Below, in pieces: positions 7,170 to 47,960 of a DNA stretch of 59,040 nucleotides. Made by a program: the position numbers and the translations under genes. The stretch lies in contig JALVXB010000006.1 in the NCBI GenBank assembly GCA_027023025.1, forward strand, positions 1 to 59,040, given 5' to 3'. Source of the stretch: Caldisericaceae bacterium. Lineage in GTDB: Bacteria; Caldisericota; Caldisericia; Caldisericales; Caldisericaceae. The notes beneath the pieces are model-generated. The model ran no database searches and was not told where the DNA came from. It saw only the letters and a program-made list of their open reading frames with translations. Numbering within the stretch: the stretch's first letter is position 1; each line of letters starts with the position of its first letter.

Positions 7170-7412
7170 CACCCTATTCAAGATCGCCTCCGGTGTGGCA
7201 GAACAAATTACTTGAGAAAGCAGGCATACACGAGAATAAAAATTTTTAACAATTCCTTCTTTTTATTTAAAACACACTCGTAACTTTTTCCATTGTAGAC
7301 AAAGAAAGTATCTTTGAGACAACCACCTTACCTATAAAATCCCCGTTCCCAGAGGTTTTTCGCTATCTTCCAAAACTTTTTTCAAAAATTCTGCAAAATT
7401 CTTTCAAAATTG

Positions 7413-7440
7413 CGGAACTTTTTCGTGAGTTTTCCGTCTA
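7413..7440 (+). promoter_or_regulatory. ECF-type promoter, copy 4
   Basis: CGGAAC, 16 bp, CGTCTA, followed by TTGTATAGGAGAGG. The upstream block (AAAATTCTGCAAAATTCTTTCAAAATTG) is a longer variant also seen in copy 11. It drives the lipoprotein gene at 7615. Confidence 0.7.
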
Positions 7441-7573
7441 TTGTATAGGAGAGGAATTAACGAAAATTCAGGTGAAGAAAGTGGAAGATTGTGAAAACAT
7501 TTTTAGAGAAACTGCGTCTATTGCACGAGGGGGAAGTTATGGAATAAAAATCGTGCCACTCGTTCACATAAAT

Positions 7574-7614: not shown

Positions 7615-8286
7615 ATGAATAAAAAAGTTATAGAGCGCCATACAGCAGAGGCAAGTAAAGCGAACGAGTTAAAAGCCTTCCTCGTTTTGTTGGTTACAAT
7701 TTTTATCCTGTCGGGATGCAGCGTCCGCAGAACGGTAAAAAATCTCCCTCAGCAAGCGAACCAGCCCCAAAAAGGTTCAGAAAGTTATTGCGACGCAAGG
7801 AAAGTATATGAGAACCCGCCCGTACTTTACGAAGAGCCGTTAAGCGTAAGTGCGAAGATAAAAAGTGTAAATTCTAACAGTCTCGTGTGCTACGACGAGA
7901 AAATAGGGCTTTTCACCATAGACAAATCATACATTAAGCCGATCCCTGCCAGATTTCTTATGGAGCACGGCATTGAGTTTCACGCACTGGTAAAACGCAT
8001 CAAAGATTCCAACGCATACAAAATCCTAAAAGACCCTTACGGTGTAGGAGACATAAGTATTCTCGTAAATGGGGTTTTCGTAAAGGAATTATCCCCTGAT
8101 GTGTTCGTGTTCAAAACGGACGAAGGCGTAAAACTAATCGTATCCGGTATGAAAGTAGACGGTATGGACAAGAAGGTGCTGGCAAAGAAAATACGCTCAA
8201 GAATACGATGCGCAGTAACCGACAGAGTTGTTAACGGCACACCTGTTTTCAGGTACATAACTGGAAAGGACCTGTCTGGTGATTAA
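7615..8286 (+). CDS. Lipoprotein of unknown function
   Basis: The 223-residue product has a long n-region, a hydrophobic core (residues 21-35) and a lipobox LSGC, so it should be acylated and held at the outer face of the membrane. The mature part is mixed alpha/beta with no family I recognise; it contains a repeated type of strand (SVSAKIKSVNSNSLV, RRIRC-like end). The stop overlaps the start of a second small lipoprotein frame at 8279. It is driven by ECF copy 4. Confidence 0.7.
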   Translation: MNKKVIERHTAEASKANELKAFLVLLVTIFILSGCSVRRTVKNLPQQANQPQKGSESYCDARKVYENPPVLYEEPLSVSAKIKSVNSNSLVCYDEKIGLFTIDKSYIKPIPARFLMEHGIEFHALVKRIKDSNAYKILKDPYGVGDISILVNGVFVKELSPDVFVFKTDEGVKLIVSGMKVDGMDKKVLAKKIRSRIRCAVTDRVVNGTPVFRYITGKDLSGD

Positions 8287-8476
8287 GAAACTCTTTGTAC
8301 TCCTGGTCGTTGCATCCGCCCTTTTTACAGCTTCAGGATGCGGAAAGCATAGCGCACTTACCCAGAATAAAGCAGGTTCTTCGCTGCAAAATAGCAACAA
8401 AAAAACACGCCCGTTTTTCTCGAAGTTTCTTTCAAAATCGCGGAACTTTTTCGTGAGTTTTCCGTCTATTGTATAG
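8279..8476 (+). pseudogene. Small lipoprotein gene truncated by an ECF promoter element
   Basis: A GTG start overlaps the end of the upstream lipoprotein gene by 8 bases. The first 21 residues form a typical signal with lipobox (FTASGC), followed by about 22 polar residues. From about residue 43 on, the reading frame simply runs through the conserved ECF element (about 8412-8476), and the stop codon is the TAG inside its TTGTATAG. The C-terminus is therefore translated promoter DNA, which suggests the element was inserted into, or replaced, the rest of the gene. It could also be an intact short lipoprotein whose tail was recruited; truncation seems likelier. Confidence 0.55.
8441..8468 (+). 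promoter_or_regulatory. ECF-type promoter, copy 5
   Basis: CGGAAC, 16 bp, CGTCTA, then TTGTATAGGAGAGG, inside the reading frame of the small lipoprotein remnant. It drives the gene at 8555. Confidence 0.7.
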
Positions 8477-8505
8477 GAGAGGAATTTTGCAGCAAGATTT
8501 TATTA

Positions 8506-8533
8506 TTGACATAATTTAGAAGTATGTTAGGAT
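8506..8533 (+). promoter_or_regulatory. Sigma70-type promoter
   Basis: TTGACA (8506-8511), 16 bp, TAGGAT (8528-8533), followed by TGGAGG and the GTG start at 8555. Confidence 0.5.
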
Positions 8534-8554: not shown

Positions 8555-10516
8555 GTGAAAAAATTGGCACTCGTATTGATTGTTTTGCTTTTCGTGCTTG
8601 CAATTTTCAGCAGCACAAATTACGGCTCTACAAAAGCAGACGAAGGGGCAATTGAAGAAACTGCGTCTAACATTATTCCCGTAAATAGTTCACAGATAGA
8701 ACTCGAAAAAGAGGACCTAAAAATCACCCTGACGGACAATTGGACTGCGTATGTCGATGCCGTATTTATTATGAAAAACACAGGAGAGAAAGTAAATCAA
8801 AAAATGGGTTTCCCTTCCGAACAACCTGCGGAAATTCCGTCTTCATTTAAAGTTTTCGTGAACGGCAAGGAACTCCCGCTTAGCAATGTAGAAGAAAAAG
8901 TTTCAGGAAGTAATGTGTGGGAAATTTCTACTATACCGTTTAACAAAGGTGAAGAAAAAACAATCCGCGTTACATATGTGGTCGAGCACCTATACGGTTA
9001 TTCGTTTAATTACATTCTGAAGACGGGTGCAACCTGGAAAGGGAGTATAGGCAGTTTGGACATTACTATTACGCTGCCTGGTAAAGCCACGCCGCCTTTC
9101 CTGCTAAAGGCTTTGCCTTCTGGATACACGGTAAAAGGAAACGACATTATTTACCACCTCAAAAATTACGAACCAGACCAGAACATCGTGGTGGACTTTC
9201 TTCCAGACTACTTTTACAAAAAGATTACTTCGCTTAAAGAAACGGCAGAGAAAACAGGTGCGCCGAAGGATTGGTACACATACATTAAGGCACTTTTGCC
9301 CGTTGACATCGTGGGCCCATACGGCAGCAGAACTCCACACAGATACTTTGTAAACGAATACAGAACGGACGGATACGAAGAGTTTGTGCAAAAAGAACTT
9401 ACCGAGGCAATGAAAAAGTGTAAAGGCACCACTTACGAAAAGATTTTACAGATAGCAGAGGCTGCACGCTTTAATAAGCAGAATACATTTTACGGGGGAG
9501 TTTACGGGATGAAAGACTTCACTCAGATTGAGCGCGCATTTGGCACGAGCCTCGAAAAACCAGAGACAAAGGAAGTGGGGCGCATCGTTGCGTATTACTA
9601 CTGGTGGAAGGCAAACGCCCTTGGAGATATGAATAAGTACGAAGGCTTTGACGCACTCGTCCGTTTTATAAAACTTGCACCCAGGTACATTCCGTTCGGC
9701 GAATGCGAAAATATGCAAAACCCCGAAGTCGTAGGATGTACTCCATTTCCGCCGAGTAAATATGCTATATTTGAGGAATTTGTATATCCAGAAAAGGTCG
9801 TTATCCAGACAAAAAACGGCAGAGTCTATGCAGTAAAGTTTTACTTCAAAAATTCTATGGAAAAAGGATTATCTCAGCTCAGGGACTTCCAGAGGCACCT
9901 AAAATATGAAGCTGACAAAATACTACAAAACGGCAGCGACATACAATTCGACTTTAACAATCTGTATTCTGGGGAAATCGTTGCAACCTATGCAGTGCCT
10001 TTCGGCAAACTGGATGCACTTAAACAAACTGTGGACAAAATCCCGGAAGTGGTGGGAACAAAAGACAGTCCGTTTTATGTATATCCCAATGCACTGATAA
10101 CGCTATTACGGCAAGGAAGTGTGCCGAAAGAGTGGGACATAAGCAGTATTAGAAACAATATCGTTGCACAACTCAGCAAAACGGAGGCGGAAATAAAAGA
10201 GGGTGCAAAAAATCCTTATTGGGAAAAGATGAAAGGCGACGACGATTACGACAGTAGTAATTATGAAAATACGTATAAAGCCACTATCAGTCTCCCCCTT
10301 GAATACATAGAAAACAATAAGTACTTTTTAGAAAAAGTGCCTGATAAAGTAGCTATCGAGGTGGAGCAGAATTCCGAAGTGGCGCAGAGTCCTGACGAAA
10401 AAACGCAAAACCCGGTTTCAAACAGCGCGCAGCAAAAAGCAGGTAAAGTAGTAATGTGGATTGCAATTATTTCGGCAGTAGTGTTGTTTCTGCTTTACGA
10501 AAAAGACAGGCTATAG
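8555..10516 (+). CDS. Large exported protein with two terminal membrane anchors
   Basis: The product has 653 residues from the GTG at 8555, chosen because the ribosome site GGAGG overlaps the upstream ATG at 8543. It has an N-terminal signal/anchor (residues 3-20) and a C-terminal membrane helix (about the last 25 residues) followed by the basic tail EKDRL, so the bulk is extracytoplasmic. The first 180 residues are beta-rich and resemble the DUF4424-like type of exported domain (a weak resemblance only). The central region is helical. There is no known catalytic motif. A polytopic membrane protein gene follows 69 bases downstream and may be co-transcribed. Confidence 0.7.
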   Translation: MKKLALVLIVLLFVLAIFSSTNYGSTKADEGAIEETASNIIPVNSSQIELEKEDLKITLTDNWTAYVDAVFIMKNTGEKVNQKMGFPSEQPAEIPSSFKVFVNGKELPLSNVEEKVSGSNVWEISTIPFNKGEEKTIRVTYVVEHLYGYSFNYILKTGATWKGSIGSLDITITLPGKATPPFLLKALPSGYTVKGNDIIYHLKNYEPDQNIVVDFLPDYFYKKITSLKETAEKTGAPKDWYTYIKALLPVDIVGPYGSRTPHRYFVNEYRTDGYEEFVQKELTEAMKKCKGTTYEKILQIAEAARFNKQNTFYGGVYGMKDFTQIERAFGTSLEKPETKEVGRIVAYYYWWKANALGDMNKYEGFDALVRFIKLAPRYIPFGECENMQNPEVVGCTPFPPSKYAIFEEFVYPEKVVIQTKNGRVYAVKFYFKNSMEKGLSQLRDFQRHLKYEADKILQNGSDIQFDFNNLYSGEIVATYAVPFGKLDALKQTVDKIPEVVGTKDSPFYVYPNALITLLRQGSVPKEWDISSIRNNIVAQLSKTEAEIKEGAKNPYWEKMKGDDDYDSSNYENTYKATISLPLEYIENNKYFLEKVPDKVAIEVEQNSEVAQSPDEKTQNPVSNSAQQKAGKVVMWIAIISAVVLFLLYEKDRL

Positions 10517-13739: not shown

Positions 13740-13767
13740 TGAAACTTTTTCGTGAGTTTTCCGTCTA
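13740..13767 (+). promoter_or_regulatory. ECF-type promoter, copy 6
   Basis: TGAAAC, 16 bp (TTTTTCGTGAGTTTTC), CGTCTA, then TTGTATAGAGG. It matches the Bacillus SigM-type consensus in both boxes and in spacing. It starts leader cassette A upstream of the amidase gene at 14258. Confidence 0.75.
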
Positions 13768-13961
13768 TTGTATAGAGGTGTAAAAATTTAAGTAAAAATT
13801 TGAGTAAAGAAACAGAAAATTGTGAAACATTTTTGGAGAAATTGCATCTATATAAGTAAGAGGAGAATTGTGAAAGAGGAATTTGAGAAGTGGAAAAGAA
13901 AAATGGAAGCAGGTTTTGCAGTTAATAAAAGCGCTTTTTATAAGGAGGTGGTGTAATAAAT

Positions 13962-13994
13962 ATGAATGTAGTGATTATAAAAACTAACTGTTGA
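13962..13994 (+). CDS. Leader peptide, cassette A (10 aa)
   Basis: ATG to TGA encodes MNVVIIKTNC, preceded by a strong TAAGGAGGTGG. Sister frames at 26625, 31693 and 37955 start MNVGG and end KTKY, KINC or KAKY in the same place, and TGAGCAAAGGTAAA follows the stop in A, C and D. Conservation of the start, ribosome site and stop, but not of each residue, suggests a translated leader rather than a functional protein. Confidence 0.55.
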   Translation: MNVVIIKTNC

Positions 13995-14069
13995 GCAAAG
14001 GTAAAGTAGCAAAGAGGTTGTATGTGAGGAAGTATCGTTTCATTATTGCAAAAAGTGTTCATAAATTGC

Positions 14070-14212
14070 CGTTAAAAATCTCAGCGCAAATTGCCTTTAC
14101 AGACTTCACAGAACCGCTCTTCGAACCTGTTGACCGTAGCACCAGAACCTGAACTTCAATAAGTGCTTTGCAGAGAAAGTGTAAAGATTGCGTAAGTATA
14201 AACGCAAACTCG
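14070..14212 (+). ncRNA. Conserved leader block, cassette A
   Basis: About 140 nt conserved in four places (also 26728, 31742, 38034). Shared blocks include GCAAATTGCCTTTGC, GAACCGCTCTTCGAACCTGTT, a CGTAGCACCAGA segment and CTCAATAAGTGCTTTGCA. Possible stems are GCAAA/TTTGC and GCAC/GTGC. It sits between the leader peptide and the gene-proximal promoter. Whether it acts as RNA, as DNA, or is only a recent duplicate is not settled. Confidence 0.45.
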
Positions 14213-14213
14213 T

Positions 14214-14241
14214 TTGCAAAGTTTTTAAAACAAACTAAAAT
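14214..14241 (+). promoter_or_regulatory. TTGCAA-family promoter
   Basis: TTGCAA, 16 bp starting AGTTTT, TAAAAT; then GAAAGGAGG and the ATG at 14258. Confidence 0.6.
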
Positions 14242-26418: not shown

Positions 26419-26446
26419 CGGAACTTTTTGTTGAGTTTTCCGTCTA
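26419..26446 (+). promoter_or_regulatory. ECF-type promoter, copy 8
   Basis: CGGAAC, 16 bp, CGTCTA, then TTGTATGGAGG. It starts leader cassette B. The preceding 50 bases (26348-26400) are nearly the same as 13670-13720 before copy 6. Confidence 0.72.
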
Positions 26447-26624
26447 TTGTATGGAGGTGCAAAAATTTAACGAAAAAATTGGGTGAAGAAAGTGGAAAAT
26501 CGTGAAACATTTTTGCAGAAATAACATCTACATAAGTGAGAAGAAAAATGACGGAAAATAAAAAAGAAAAATGGAAGCAGGTTATGCAGTCAATGAGAAT
26601 GCTTTTTACAGGAGGTAGTGCAAT

Positions 26625-26690
26625 ATGAATGTAGGTGGTTTAAAAACAAAATACCGAGCAAAGGTAAATGTGCAGAGAGGTTGCATGTGA
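26625..26690 (+). CDS. Leader peptide, cassette B (21 aa)
   Basis: MNVGGLKTKY, then eleven more residues: the TGA stop present in the sister cassettes is CGA here, so the frame runs on to TGA at 26688. AGGAGG precedes the ATG. Same position within the cassette as 13962, 31693 and 37955. Confidence 0.5.
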   Translation: MNVGGLKTKYRAKVNVQRGCM

Positions 26691-26727
26691 GGAAATATCA
26701 CTTATTGTGAAAAGTGTTAATGAATTA

Positions 26728-26866
26728 CATTTAAAAACCTCAGCGCAAATTGCCTTTGCAAATTCTTCGGAACTGCTCCTCGAACCTGTTAACCGTAGCA
26801 CCAGAGCCTGAACCTCAATAAGTACTTTGCAAACAAAATACAAAAATTGCGTAAACATAAATTCGT
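26728..26866 (+). ncRNA. Conserved leader block, cassette B
   Basis: Contains the GCAAATTGCCTTTGC hairpin, GCTCCTCGAACCTGTTAACC, CGTAGCACCAGAGCCTGAAC and CTCAATAAGTACTTTGC. Closest in its upstream part to cassette A. Confidence 0.45.
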
Positions 26867-26894
26867 TTGCAAAGTTTTGAAAAGAGGGTAAAAT
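26867..26894 (+). promoter_or_regulatory. TTGCAA-family promoter
   Basis: TTGCAA, 16 bp beginning AGTTTT, TAAAAT, about 25 bases before the ATG at 26920. Confidence 0.6.
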
Positions 26895-26919
26895 TTTTGA
26901 TTAGGGAGACAGATAAAAT

Positions 26920-27573
26920 ATGAAGAAAGCAATTACTACTTTGGTAATTTTCATTTTAGCACTTTGCCCGACTTCTTTTATGGTAAACGCAAAAACACTA
27001 CCAGGAAGTAGTAATATTCAGTATCCAGTTTTAATTAAGGAAACCGCCAAAACTATATCTTTGTCTGAAGCCATTTCGGGGCTTAAAAAAGCTGAAGGAT
27101 TAAACCGTCGCAAGGCTGTGGAATACATTATAAACAACGAAAAAGCATTTGAAAAGTTGCATCCAGAGCTTTTCACTTCCCATTCTAACATTTCTTCAGG
27201 GCACTACGAGTATGTGCAACTTTCTCGTTCTGAGTATTTTGGGCAGGTCCACTGGAAGCATTGCGGAATAGAGAGAAGCATGCCTATAGTTGTCCAGCAA
27301 TTTGTATATGCAGAAGTTTATGTTGACGAATCTTCCAGGCAATTCGTCTGGGTAAGCGATCCGTTTACTACACCAATTAGCGGTAGGTATACTTGGCACC
27401 CGACATATAACCATACGCGACAGGATTCACCTGCTCAATTCACAGCAATGAGCAACGGATATGCGGAAGTTTCTACAAGTTCTTCTATATTTTTCTGCTC
27501 TTTAGGAAGCACCTATTATTACAGGAAAGCCTGTGACTTTTCGATGTGGACTTATAACTTACGCAATTGGTGA
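26920..27573 (+). CDS. Exported protein of unknown function
   Basis: The 217-residue product has a signal peptide (about residues 1-24, ending VNA) and no lipobox. The N-terminal half is helical (LSEAISGLKKAEGLNRRKAVEYI). The C-terminal half is Ser/Thr/Tyr-rich and beta-like with several Trp and two Cys that could form a disulphide. I do not recognise the family. The ribosome site is weak (GGGAG, 12 bases from ATG). It is governed by the full cassette: ECF promoter, leader peptide, conserved block and proximal promoter. Confidence 0.65.
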   Translation: MKKAITTLVIFILALCPTSFMVNAKTLPGSSNIQYPVLIKETAKTISLSEAISGLKKAEGLNRRKAVEYIINNEKAFEKLHPELFTSHSNISSGHYEYVQLSRSEYFGQVHWKHCGIERSMPIVVQQFVYAEVYVDESSRQFVWVSDPFTTPISGRYTWHPTYNHTRQDSPAQFTAMSNGYAEVSTSSSIFFCSLGSTYYYRKACDFSMWTYNLRNW

Positions 27574-31236: not shown

Positions 31237-31418
31237 TCCGGGGCCGTACACGATAAGCAACGCGTGGCAATAGTGGGGAGCAACCTTTGTTAGGAAAGTA
31301 CGCTGCGCAAAATGCGGAAGCGCATCTTACACATAACATACGGTTCAACTGTGCGGCACTTGCTCAAACGGCATTCGTTAAAATCTTACAAAATTCTTCG
31401 TTGATTTTACGAAAATCG
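31237..31418. other. Intergenic region before ECF copy 9
   Basis: The first 140 bases after the propeller gene show no gene, terminator or dispersed repeat. From about 31380 the conserved upstream block of ECF copy 9 begins. Confidence 0.3.
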
Positions 31419-31446
31419 TGAAACTTTTTGTTGAGTTTTCCGTCTA
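31419..31446 (+). promoter_or_regulatory. ECF-type promoter, copy 9
   Basis: TGAAAC, 16 bp (TTTTTGTTGAGTTTTC), CGTCTA, then TTGTATAGAG. Start of cassette C. No CTCTGAG repeat array precedes it. Confidence 0.72.
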
Positions 31447-31649
31447 TTGTATAGAGAGAAATTTAAGTAAAAATTATAAAACATTTAGTGAAAATCTTAT
31501 CTAAACCATAATTGGAACATTATGAGTAAATTGTGCAAACGAATAGTGCGAAATCAATAAAGCTTTTATCAGGTTTATGTGGTACAAAAGGCTGCATAAA
31601 ATTACAATTTTCTGTATTAAAAAAATTTTTCACTTTTTTCATAAAACTA

Positions 31650-31676
31650 TTGACAAGAGAGAGTATAAAATATGTA
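31650..31676 (+). promoter_or_regulatory. Sigma70-type promoter of the cassette C leader
   Basis: TTGACA, then AGAGAGAG and TATAAAATATGTA. A 15-bp spacing gives TATGTA as -10. Compared with 37903-37930, an 8-bp AGAGATAG-type unit is missing, bringing TATAAA too close. Confidence 0.5.
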
Positions 31677-31692
31677 CAAGGAGGTGGTGTAT

Positions 31693-31725
31693 ATGAATGT
31701 AGGTGGCATAAAAATTAACTGCTGA
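31693..31725 (+). CDS. Leader peptide, cassette C (10 aa)
   Basis: Encodes MNVGGIKINC with TGA stop, behind AAGGAGGTGG. Confidence 0.55.
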   Translation: MNVGGIKINC

Positions 31726-31741
31726 GCAAAGGTAAATGTGC

Positions 31742-31879
31742 ACCAGAGTATCGAGTGCAAATTGCCTTTGCAGATTTTACGGAACCGCTCCTCGAACCTG
31801 TTAACCACAGTACCAAAACCTGAACCTCAATAAGTGCTTTGCAAATGAAGCGAAAAATCACACCGAAACACAAACTCGT
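31742..31879 (+). ncRNA. Conserved leader block, cassette C
   Basis: GCAAATTGCCTTTGC hairpin, GCTCCTCGAACCTGTTAACC, GTACCAAAACCTGAACCTC and AAGTGCTTTGCAAATGAAGC. GTAC/GTGC arms can still pair through a G-U. Closest to cassette D in its 3' part. Confidence 0.45.
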
Positions 31880-31907
31880 TTGCAAAGTTTTGAAAAGAAA
31901 GTAAAAT
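31880..31907 (+). promoter_or_regulatory. TTGCAA-family promoter
   Basis: TTGCAA, 16 bp beginning AGTTTT, TAAAAT, then GAAAGGAG before the ATG at 31931. Confidence 0.6.
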
Positions 31908-31930
31908 TTGAAAGGAGATAAAGGAGAAAA

Positions 31931-37666: not shown

Positions 37667-37694
37667 TGAAACTTTTCGTCGAGTTTTCCGTCTA
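37667..37694 (+). promoter_or_regulatory. ECF-type promoter, copy 11
   Basis: TGAAAC, 16 bp, CGTCTA, then TTGTATAGG. Start of cassette D. The upstream block is the long variant shared with copy 4. Confidence 0.74.
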
Positions 37695-37902
37695 TTGTAT
37701 AGGAAAGGTAAAATTTAAGTAAAAGTTATAAAACATTTAGTGAAAATCTTATCTAAGCCATAATTGAAACATTGTGAGTAAATTGTGCAAACGAATAGTG
37801 CGCAATAAATAAAGATTTTAACAGGTTTATATGGCACAAAAGGCTGTATAAAATTACAATTTTTTGTGTTAAAAAAATTCTTCACTTTTTTCCATAAAAC
37901 TA

Positions 37903-37930
37903 TTGACAAGAGAGAGATAGAGAGTATAAA
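37903..37930 (+). promoter_or_regulatory. Sigma70-type promoter of the cassette D leader
   Basis: TTGACA, 16 bp of AG-rich DNA, TATAAA, then AAGGAGGTGG and the leader peptide. The 200 bases before it match 31450-31640 closely. Confidence 0.65.
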
Positions 37931-37954
37931 ATATGCATAAGGAGGTGGTGTAAT

Positions 37955-37987
37955 ATGAATGTAGGTGGCGCAAAAGCAAAATACTGA
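37955..37987 (+). CDS. Leader peptide, cassette D (10 aa)
   Basis: Encodes MNVGGAKAKY with TGA stop, behind AAGGAGGTGG nine bases upstream. Confidence 0.55.
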   Translation: MNVGGAKAKY

Positions 37988-38033
37988 GCAAAGGTAAAGT
38001 AGCAGAGAGGTTATTCATAAAAATAGGTGTGCT

Positions 38034-38171
38034 CGTTAAAAACCTCGGCACAAAATGCCTTTGCAAACTTCCAGAACCGCTCTTCGAACCTGTTGACCGT
38101 AGCACCAGAGCCCGAACCTCAATAAGTGCTTTGCAAATGAAGCAAAAAATCACATCGAAACATAAACTCGT
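38034..38171 (+). ncRNA. Conserved leader block, cassette D
   Basis: GCTCTTCGAACCTGTTGACC, CGTAGCACCAGAGCCCGAAC, CTCAATAAGTGCTTTGC. The first hairpin is changed: GGCACAAAATGCC here, against GCAAATTGCCTTTGC in B and C, keeping a stem with different bases. Confidence 0.45.
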
Positions 38172-38199
38172 TTACAAAGTTTTCAAAACAAAATAAAAT
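38172..38199 (+). promoter_or_regulatory. TTGCAA-family promoter (TTACAA)
   Basis: TTACAA, 16 bp beginning AGTTTT, TAAAAT, then AAAAAGGAA before the ATG at 38215. Confidence 0.55.
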
Positions 38200-38214
38200 A
38201 CAAAAAGGAAAAAT

Positions 38215-39000
38215 ATGAATAAAAAAAGAATTATTAGTATCATTTTATCGGTGTTGTTAGTAGTAGTATTAATGCTTCCTGCTACTAATGCAGACGCTGC
38301 AGATGGAATATCCGCAAACTTAGTAACATTAATTAATGTGCAAAGCAATAAGCTCGTAGAATATCTGAAATTAAATGCCTCAAAGGGAGAACCCCATATC
38401 TTAATAGAGAATTTTATGAAAGATAACAAGTTTCCACTTCCTGGCACTCTTAATAATAATTTGGTAAAACTTTCTGAAACCAATAATATTTATGTGTTAA
38501 AAAGTGTTGATTTAGGCAATGGCTGTTACTTAACTTTTCTAAGTAACGGAGTTTTTTATTTAGATGAACTGAAAGAAAAGCAACTAAAATATCCATATCC
38601 GAGCAATTTATCTGCAGTAAATGTCACAAATAATTACTCATCTTCAACAAGTCAGATTCATTATAAATTTGCATCAAACGATAGATATGCATATAACATA
38701 TTTGGATGGCCTTTGTTTAGAATACACATAGAATCAAATTTCGGATACAATGGAACAAAGGCCTGGTATGCAGGAGGGTTAGTTGGCTATTACTCGAGAT
38801 ACATTTCTGGCGGTATTTGGCAGGTGTCTAACTGGCAGGTTGGTACTACTGTAATTAACGGAGGCGAATACTGTAGGGCATATGCAAGAGGGAATTTTCA
38901 CTTTGGAATTGAATACCAGGGAATTGGATGGATATTTCAAGATGTATATGAAGATGTAAGAGTAAGTGTAACGAGAAATGGCACTGTTTACAGGAACTGA
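38215..39000 (+). CDS. Exported protein of a Gram-positive-like hypothetical family
   Basis: The 261-residue product has a signal peptide (about residues 1-28, ending DADA). After a short helical propeptide-like part, the C-terminal 110 residues are beta-rich with many aromatic residues (YNIFGWPLFRIHIES, GTKAWYAGG, YCRAYARGNFHFGI, DVYEDVRVSVTRNG). This resembles exported hypothetical proteins I know from Firmicutes (a shared W/Y-rich Ca-independent beta domain), with no assigned function; some such families are antimicrobial or surface proteins, but that is not shown here. A 33-residue membrane peptide follows after two bases, so the pair could act as effector plus immunity or helper. Confidence 0.6.
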   Translation: MNKKRIISIILSVLLVVVLMLPATNADAADGISANLVTLINVQSNKLVEYLKLNASKGEPHILIENFMKDNKFPLPGTLNNNLVKLSETNNIYVLKSVDLGNGCYLTFLSNGVFYLDELKEKQLKYPYPSNLSAVNVTNNYSSSTSQIHYKFASNDRYAYNIFGWPLFRIHIESNFGYNGTKAWYAGGLVGYYSRYISGGIWQVSNWQVGTTVINGGEYCRAYARGNFHFGIEYQGIGWIFQDVYEDVRVSVTRNGTVYRN

Positions 39001-47806: not shown

Positions 47807-47960
47807 AACTTTGCCTCCACTTTTTTACATCGTAACATATTTTCAAATTAAGTCCAGCACAAGTGCGCTGAAATTTTTTACTTCCACAGGTGCGACTTCC
47901 GCAGAAGTGTTTCACCTCTTTTGCTCAAATTTTTCGCTAAATTTTTGCACCTCTATACAA

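Follow-up and report, generated by a model that had tools for sequence, protein, structure and literature searches.

Does the small lipoprotein frame at 8279-8476 record the insertion of a promoter into a gene, or does it merely run into the promoter of its neighbor? We addressed this question in a window of 59,040 nucleotides (the whole stretch of DNA that was analyzed) from the genome of a Caldisericaceae bacterium (G000), and by comparison with its relatives, among which G001, a 77%-complete draft, is the only sister species. The host family consists of deep-branching thermophiles with little laboratory genetics. The following features surround the frame.

7399-7458, + strand: neighboring copy of the element, 59 of 60 positions identical to 8427-8486
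7615-8286, + strand: lipoprotein gene (orphan, 223 aa), overlapping the GTG at 8279 with its 3' end
8279-8476, + strand: small lipoprotein ORF, GTG start, 65 aa, 3' end within the promoter element; translation MIKKLFVLLVVASALFTASGCGKHSALTQNKAGSSLQNSNKKTRPFFSKFLSKSRNFFVSFPSIV, then stop
8415-8486, + strand: putative ECF-type promoter element (full extent of similarity), with conserved block 8427-8486, -35 GGAACTTTTT at 8442-8451 and -10 CGTCTA at 8463-8468
8506-8533, + strand: sigma-A-like promoter, TTGACA-16-TAGGAT, between the element and the gene at 8555
8555-10516, + strand: downstream gene and likely promoter target, starting with GTG at 8555 behind GGAGG; encodes a secreted or membrane protein whose DUF4424 match is below threshold

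The lipoprotein frame and the element it enters

The frame ends in a member of a dispersed promoter family. The initial annotation had described a small lipoprotein that closes in a translated ECF element, TAG included, and we confirm this: the ORF is present, and 27 further sites in the genome resemble its last 50 nt (E = 2e-18 to 1e-5). Element copies, two of which we label by the start of their -35 (the 8442 copy is block 8427-8486, the 7414 copy block 7399-7458), number about 30 in G000 and 14 in G001. The pattern of GGAACTTTTT and CGTCTA at fixed spacing recovers 27 of the G000 copies. A model based on sequence alone and derived from 24 of them gives 30 strong hits in the genome (E <= 5e-9). 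An ungapped alignment shows strong conservation across 8427-8486 and weaker 5' similarity from about 8415. The ungapped consensus of the 27 copies is AAAATTCTTCCAAAATCGTGGAACTTTTT(C/G)(G/T)TGAGTTTTCCGTCTATTGTATAG, and the core -35 and -10 positions are kept by 26-27 of the 27 G000 copies and by 10 of 10 in G001. Related elements with genus-specific versions of the spacer and -10 occur throughout the family, with weak hits in G002 and G005. One promoter base has changed species-wide, the third after CGTCTA (8471 here; position 29 from the -35 G): 26 of 27 G000 copies have G there, and 8 of 10 G001 copies have A.

From the GGAAC-type -35, the GTC-type -10 and their fixed spacing, we infer that the element is a stress-type promoter recognized by an ECF sigma factor. 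G001 carries an ECF sigma gene (TIGR02937) at C31:889, divergent from an element at C31:527 and followed at C31:1593 by a gene for a possible anti-sigma membrane protein; the same layout is found in G009. Judged by position only, the C31-type ECF sigma is a candidate for the cognate sigma of the elements.

The frame's 3' end now coincides with the 5' part of the promoter of the next gene. Strictly element-derived are the C-terminal 16 codons plus the TAG (of TGTATAG), or about 20 codons if the less conserved 5' part is included, close to the 22 or so residues first reported. The signal and lipobox had been called perfect; the lipoprotein signal is indeed there, while the lipobox, TASGC, is acceptable rather than perfect.

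This signal bears on whether the ORF is a gene at all. The N-terminus could be signal-like by chance, with only the promoters functional in this intergenic region. The codon score is ambiguous: 98% of long genes score higher, and 78% of shadow ORFs lower. No Pfam family matches, and a search for homologues in 20 relatives returned only look-alike signal peptides and the element. Set against this, a comparable lipoprotein-like signal occurs in just 1 of 460 shadow ORFs of 50-110 codons, the GTG overlaps the end of the 7615-8286 ORF, and AAGGA, a plausible ribosome-binding site, lies 8 nt upstream of it. We regard a non-gene as unlikely. Probably the frame is a genuine gene, or what remains of one, with its translation coupled to that of the gene at 7615, for which no orthologue was found in 60 relatives.

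Insertion, overlap and vertical retention

At this locus we find no support for the initial proposal that a 60-bp cassette inserted itself into a longer lipoprotein gene, because no target duplication was found at the edges of the 8442 copy and because in silico removal of 8427-8486 adds only 7 codons before a TGA. All three frames downstream of the element close within 10 codons. The proposed search for breakpoint microhomology came out negative as well: the longest word shared by the two flanks is 4 nt, as expected by chance. No empty site for the 8442 copy was found. Since no orthologue of the lipoprotein was found either, its truncation stays hypothetical: the ORF may never have extended further, or may go untranslated.

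Transposition of a small promoter cassette, MITE-like or as a mobile promoter, would nonetheless account for near-identical 60-nt copies before unrelated genes. It would also fit the close identity of the 8442 copy to its neighbor, and a perfect 10-nt inverted repeat (8383-8392 / 8484-8493) that brackets it, an arrangement seen at 0.3% of random sites. The inverted repeat, however, is not common to other copies, and no RAYT/Y1 transposase gene was found in G000 (the Y1 family was searched) nor any recombinase or transposase linked to the element. With no common inverted repeat, no duplication at 8442 and no Y1 transposase, the element does not resemble a transposon or MITE, and we consider transposition into the lipoprotein gene improbable. 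The 8442 and 7414 copies lie 1,028 bp apart, with 7414 upstream, and their identity (59/60) ranks third among all pairs; the next best matches of the 8442 copy reach 56/60 (a copy in G001) and 53/60 within G000. This near-identity suggests that one may have been copied locally from the other.

A plainer reading involves neither insertion nor recombination here: in a compact genome, the lipoprotein gene and the next gene's promoter simply overlap, the upstream frame being by chance open into a promoter with stops in two of three frames. An ORF of at least 50 codons enters 7 of 27 elements, this case included, so such an arrangement is not rare in itself, and the missing target duplication and the failure to restore a longer frame are as simple overlap would have it. 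The signal peptide sets the 8279 ORF apart from the other ORFs that enter elements: no other element in G000 overlaps a convincing upstream gene. Moreover, the block common to the 8442 and 7414 copies ends abruptly on both sides, which counts against simple overlap.

Simple overlap also draws support from vertical retention, as elements are conserved before orthologous genes in the two species. The 8442 promoter likely belongs to the gene at 8555, because a paralogue of that gene (C43:73472) and the paralogue's G001 orthologue (89% protein identity) both carry the element 29 nt before the start codon. In G001, the 8555 gene itself matches only this C43-type orthologue, at 37-43% identity, and it was left out of the nine elements whose downstream gene has a clear G001 counterpart. 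Seven of these nine counterparts have an element at a readable distance (C43:73419, C33:29915, C1:73215, C1:5142, C1:12452, C6:2295 and C33:25805). In the case of C26:3015 and of C6:26420, the G001 contig breaks off within the element or shortly past it, which is consistent with its presence there, though unread. The distance from element to gene is nearly kept in five of the seven pairs, and at C33:25805 it is 492 nt vs 213 nt in G001. At C6:2295, the G001 matches are paralogues, of 54% and 36% identity. Synteny is conserved on both sides of two elements, C43:73419 and C33:29915, which speaks against the module movement proposed below. In the orthologous pair C43/C65, a point change would fit better than wholesale replacement of a cassette, because the third base after CGTCTA differs while copy-specific spacer letters persist. 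We hold simple overlap at this locus to be possible but doubtful.

Sequences around the elements recur in their own right. A conserved leader of roughly 450-510 nt spans element to start codon at 13741-14225, 26420-26920, 31420-31930 and 37668-38215; Rfam gave no match in the window, these leaders included. The conserved flanks of the other copies, previously attributed to cassette insertion or recombination, are largely explained by promoter architecture and such shared leaders. Segments similar to the sigma-A-like promoter at 8506-8533 also occur at 47850 (- strand) and C1:59467 (- strand), at all three loci between ECF element and start codon. A REP-like repeat, GTCACTCTGAGCGAAGCGAAGAGTCTC, often lies just upstream of elements; it has 54 copies in G001 and is found in the window at 160, 215, 13172, 13240, 13295, 13623, 25214, 26024, 26304, 48135, 48513, 50352 and 50539. 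A dispersed repeat of about 300 nt (C40:21984-22291, C1:17548-17860) has at least 10 copies in G001.

Promoter-gene modules in two sister species

Modules of promoter and gene occupy different places in the two species. In G001, an element and a lipoprotein gene lie on C25 between a CcdA-like gene and a gene of 235 aa. The same flanks, 89-91% identical over most of their length, enclose only REP-rich non-coding DNA on C25 of G000. The missing unit is located in G000 at C1:5099-6382, 89% identical, in a block that begins at the promoter's 5' edge; the lipoprotein gene copy is frame-disrupted in G001. Two further cases involve the exchange of what stands behind a promoter or at the front of a gene, the first of them at an element copy in the window.

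31412-31456, + strand: element copy with an internal synteny switch relative to sister-species contig C15; the downstream gene differs

On C15, the upstream part and the element match C6:26461-31456, and the sequence past the element matches the gene behind C1:73215. On C23 of G001, a gene is 95% identical over 462 nt to the C33:25805 gene, but from the promoter through the leader to about codon 16 it looks like the C6:2295/2510 paralogue. These two cases are tentative because both lie on short contigs of the draft (4.0 and 7.9 kb), and they could be misassemblies at repeats. Across the genome, synteny ends at elements four times, where other intergenic DNA would lead one to expect 1.3 (P = 0.04; 4/33 without contig edges, 6/40 with them), a weak excess.

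These comparisons support promoter-linked movement of modules in the genus, with one firm case and two tentative ones. The claim that promoter cassettes move thus stands in part: promoter-bearing segments do change place, but where breakpoints are readable the moving unit is promoter plus gene, or promoter plus leader and first codons, and a bare hop of the 60-bp promoter is unsupported.

We propose that in this genus promoters and the genes behind them recombine as modules made up of a REP-rich flank, ECF promoter, leader and gene, possibly by homologous recombination. Such reshuffling would turn promoter edges into junctions. A junction of this kind, or a local copying event from the 7414 promoter, 1 kb upstream, would have left the 8279 frame entering the promoter and stopping at its TAG. 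We lean, by a little over even chances, towards a frame that was cut by, or merely overlaps, the 5' edge of a recombining promoter-gene module.

For the locus itself little follows beyond one small lipoprotein whose tail is encoded by a promoter. More broadly, were promoter copies to act as joints for recombination, gene capture could enlarge a regulon without binding sites having to evolve one at a time. The occupied and empty C25 sites and the module swap make gene capture testable in this family.

Comparison with known systems

The elements resemble ECF sigma promoters of the RpoE/SigW class in their GGAAC -35 with a T tract, GTCTA -10 and fixed spacing. As in RpoE/SigW-class regulons, many targets are envelope or secreted proteins, and a sigma gene and possible anti-sigma gene stand beside one copy. 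Unlike in such promoters, conservation here extends past the hexamers to the spacer, the upstream AT-rich part and the start region; it is also genus-specific, and copies within a genome look mutually copied.

Mobile promoters are described in the cited sources as short near-identical promoters before non-homologous genes (Matus-Garcia et al. 2012 and van Passel et al. 2014, as cited in PMC8049555 and PMC9208149). Near-identical copies likewise precede non-homologous genes within G000. Unlike mobile promoters, however, the copies bring with them a gene or the front of one and are conserved before orthologues across species. No empty site lacking the promoter alone was found, and the sole empty site found lacks promoter and gene together.

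The PeSL elements of T4-type phages are, according to the sources cited, repeated promoter-bearing sequences between small genes at which modules are shuffled (Arbiol et al. 2010 and Comeau et al. 2014, as cited in PMC4503421). Here too, gene modules appear to be shuffled at repeated promoter-bearing sequences, but on a cellular chromosome and with an ECF promoter in place of a phage early promoter. The terminator stem-loop shared by PeSL is not established here; one scan of the 8442 copy gave a weak hairpin at 8438-8456. We raise as a speculation, which we would not yet bet on, that near-identical ECF promoters in this family provide the homology by which genes are shuffled on the chromosome. 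Genes for secreted proteins would be exchanged behind promoters, and promoters, together with leader and signal-peptide codons, would be exchanged in front of genes. The elements would then be a cellular counterpart of PeSL, and the 8279 frame the scar tissue of one event.
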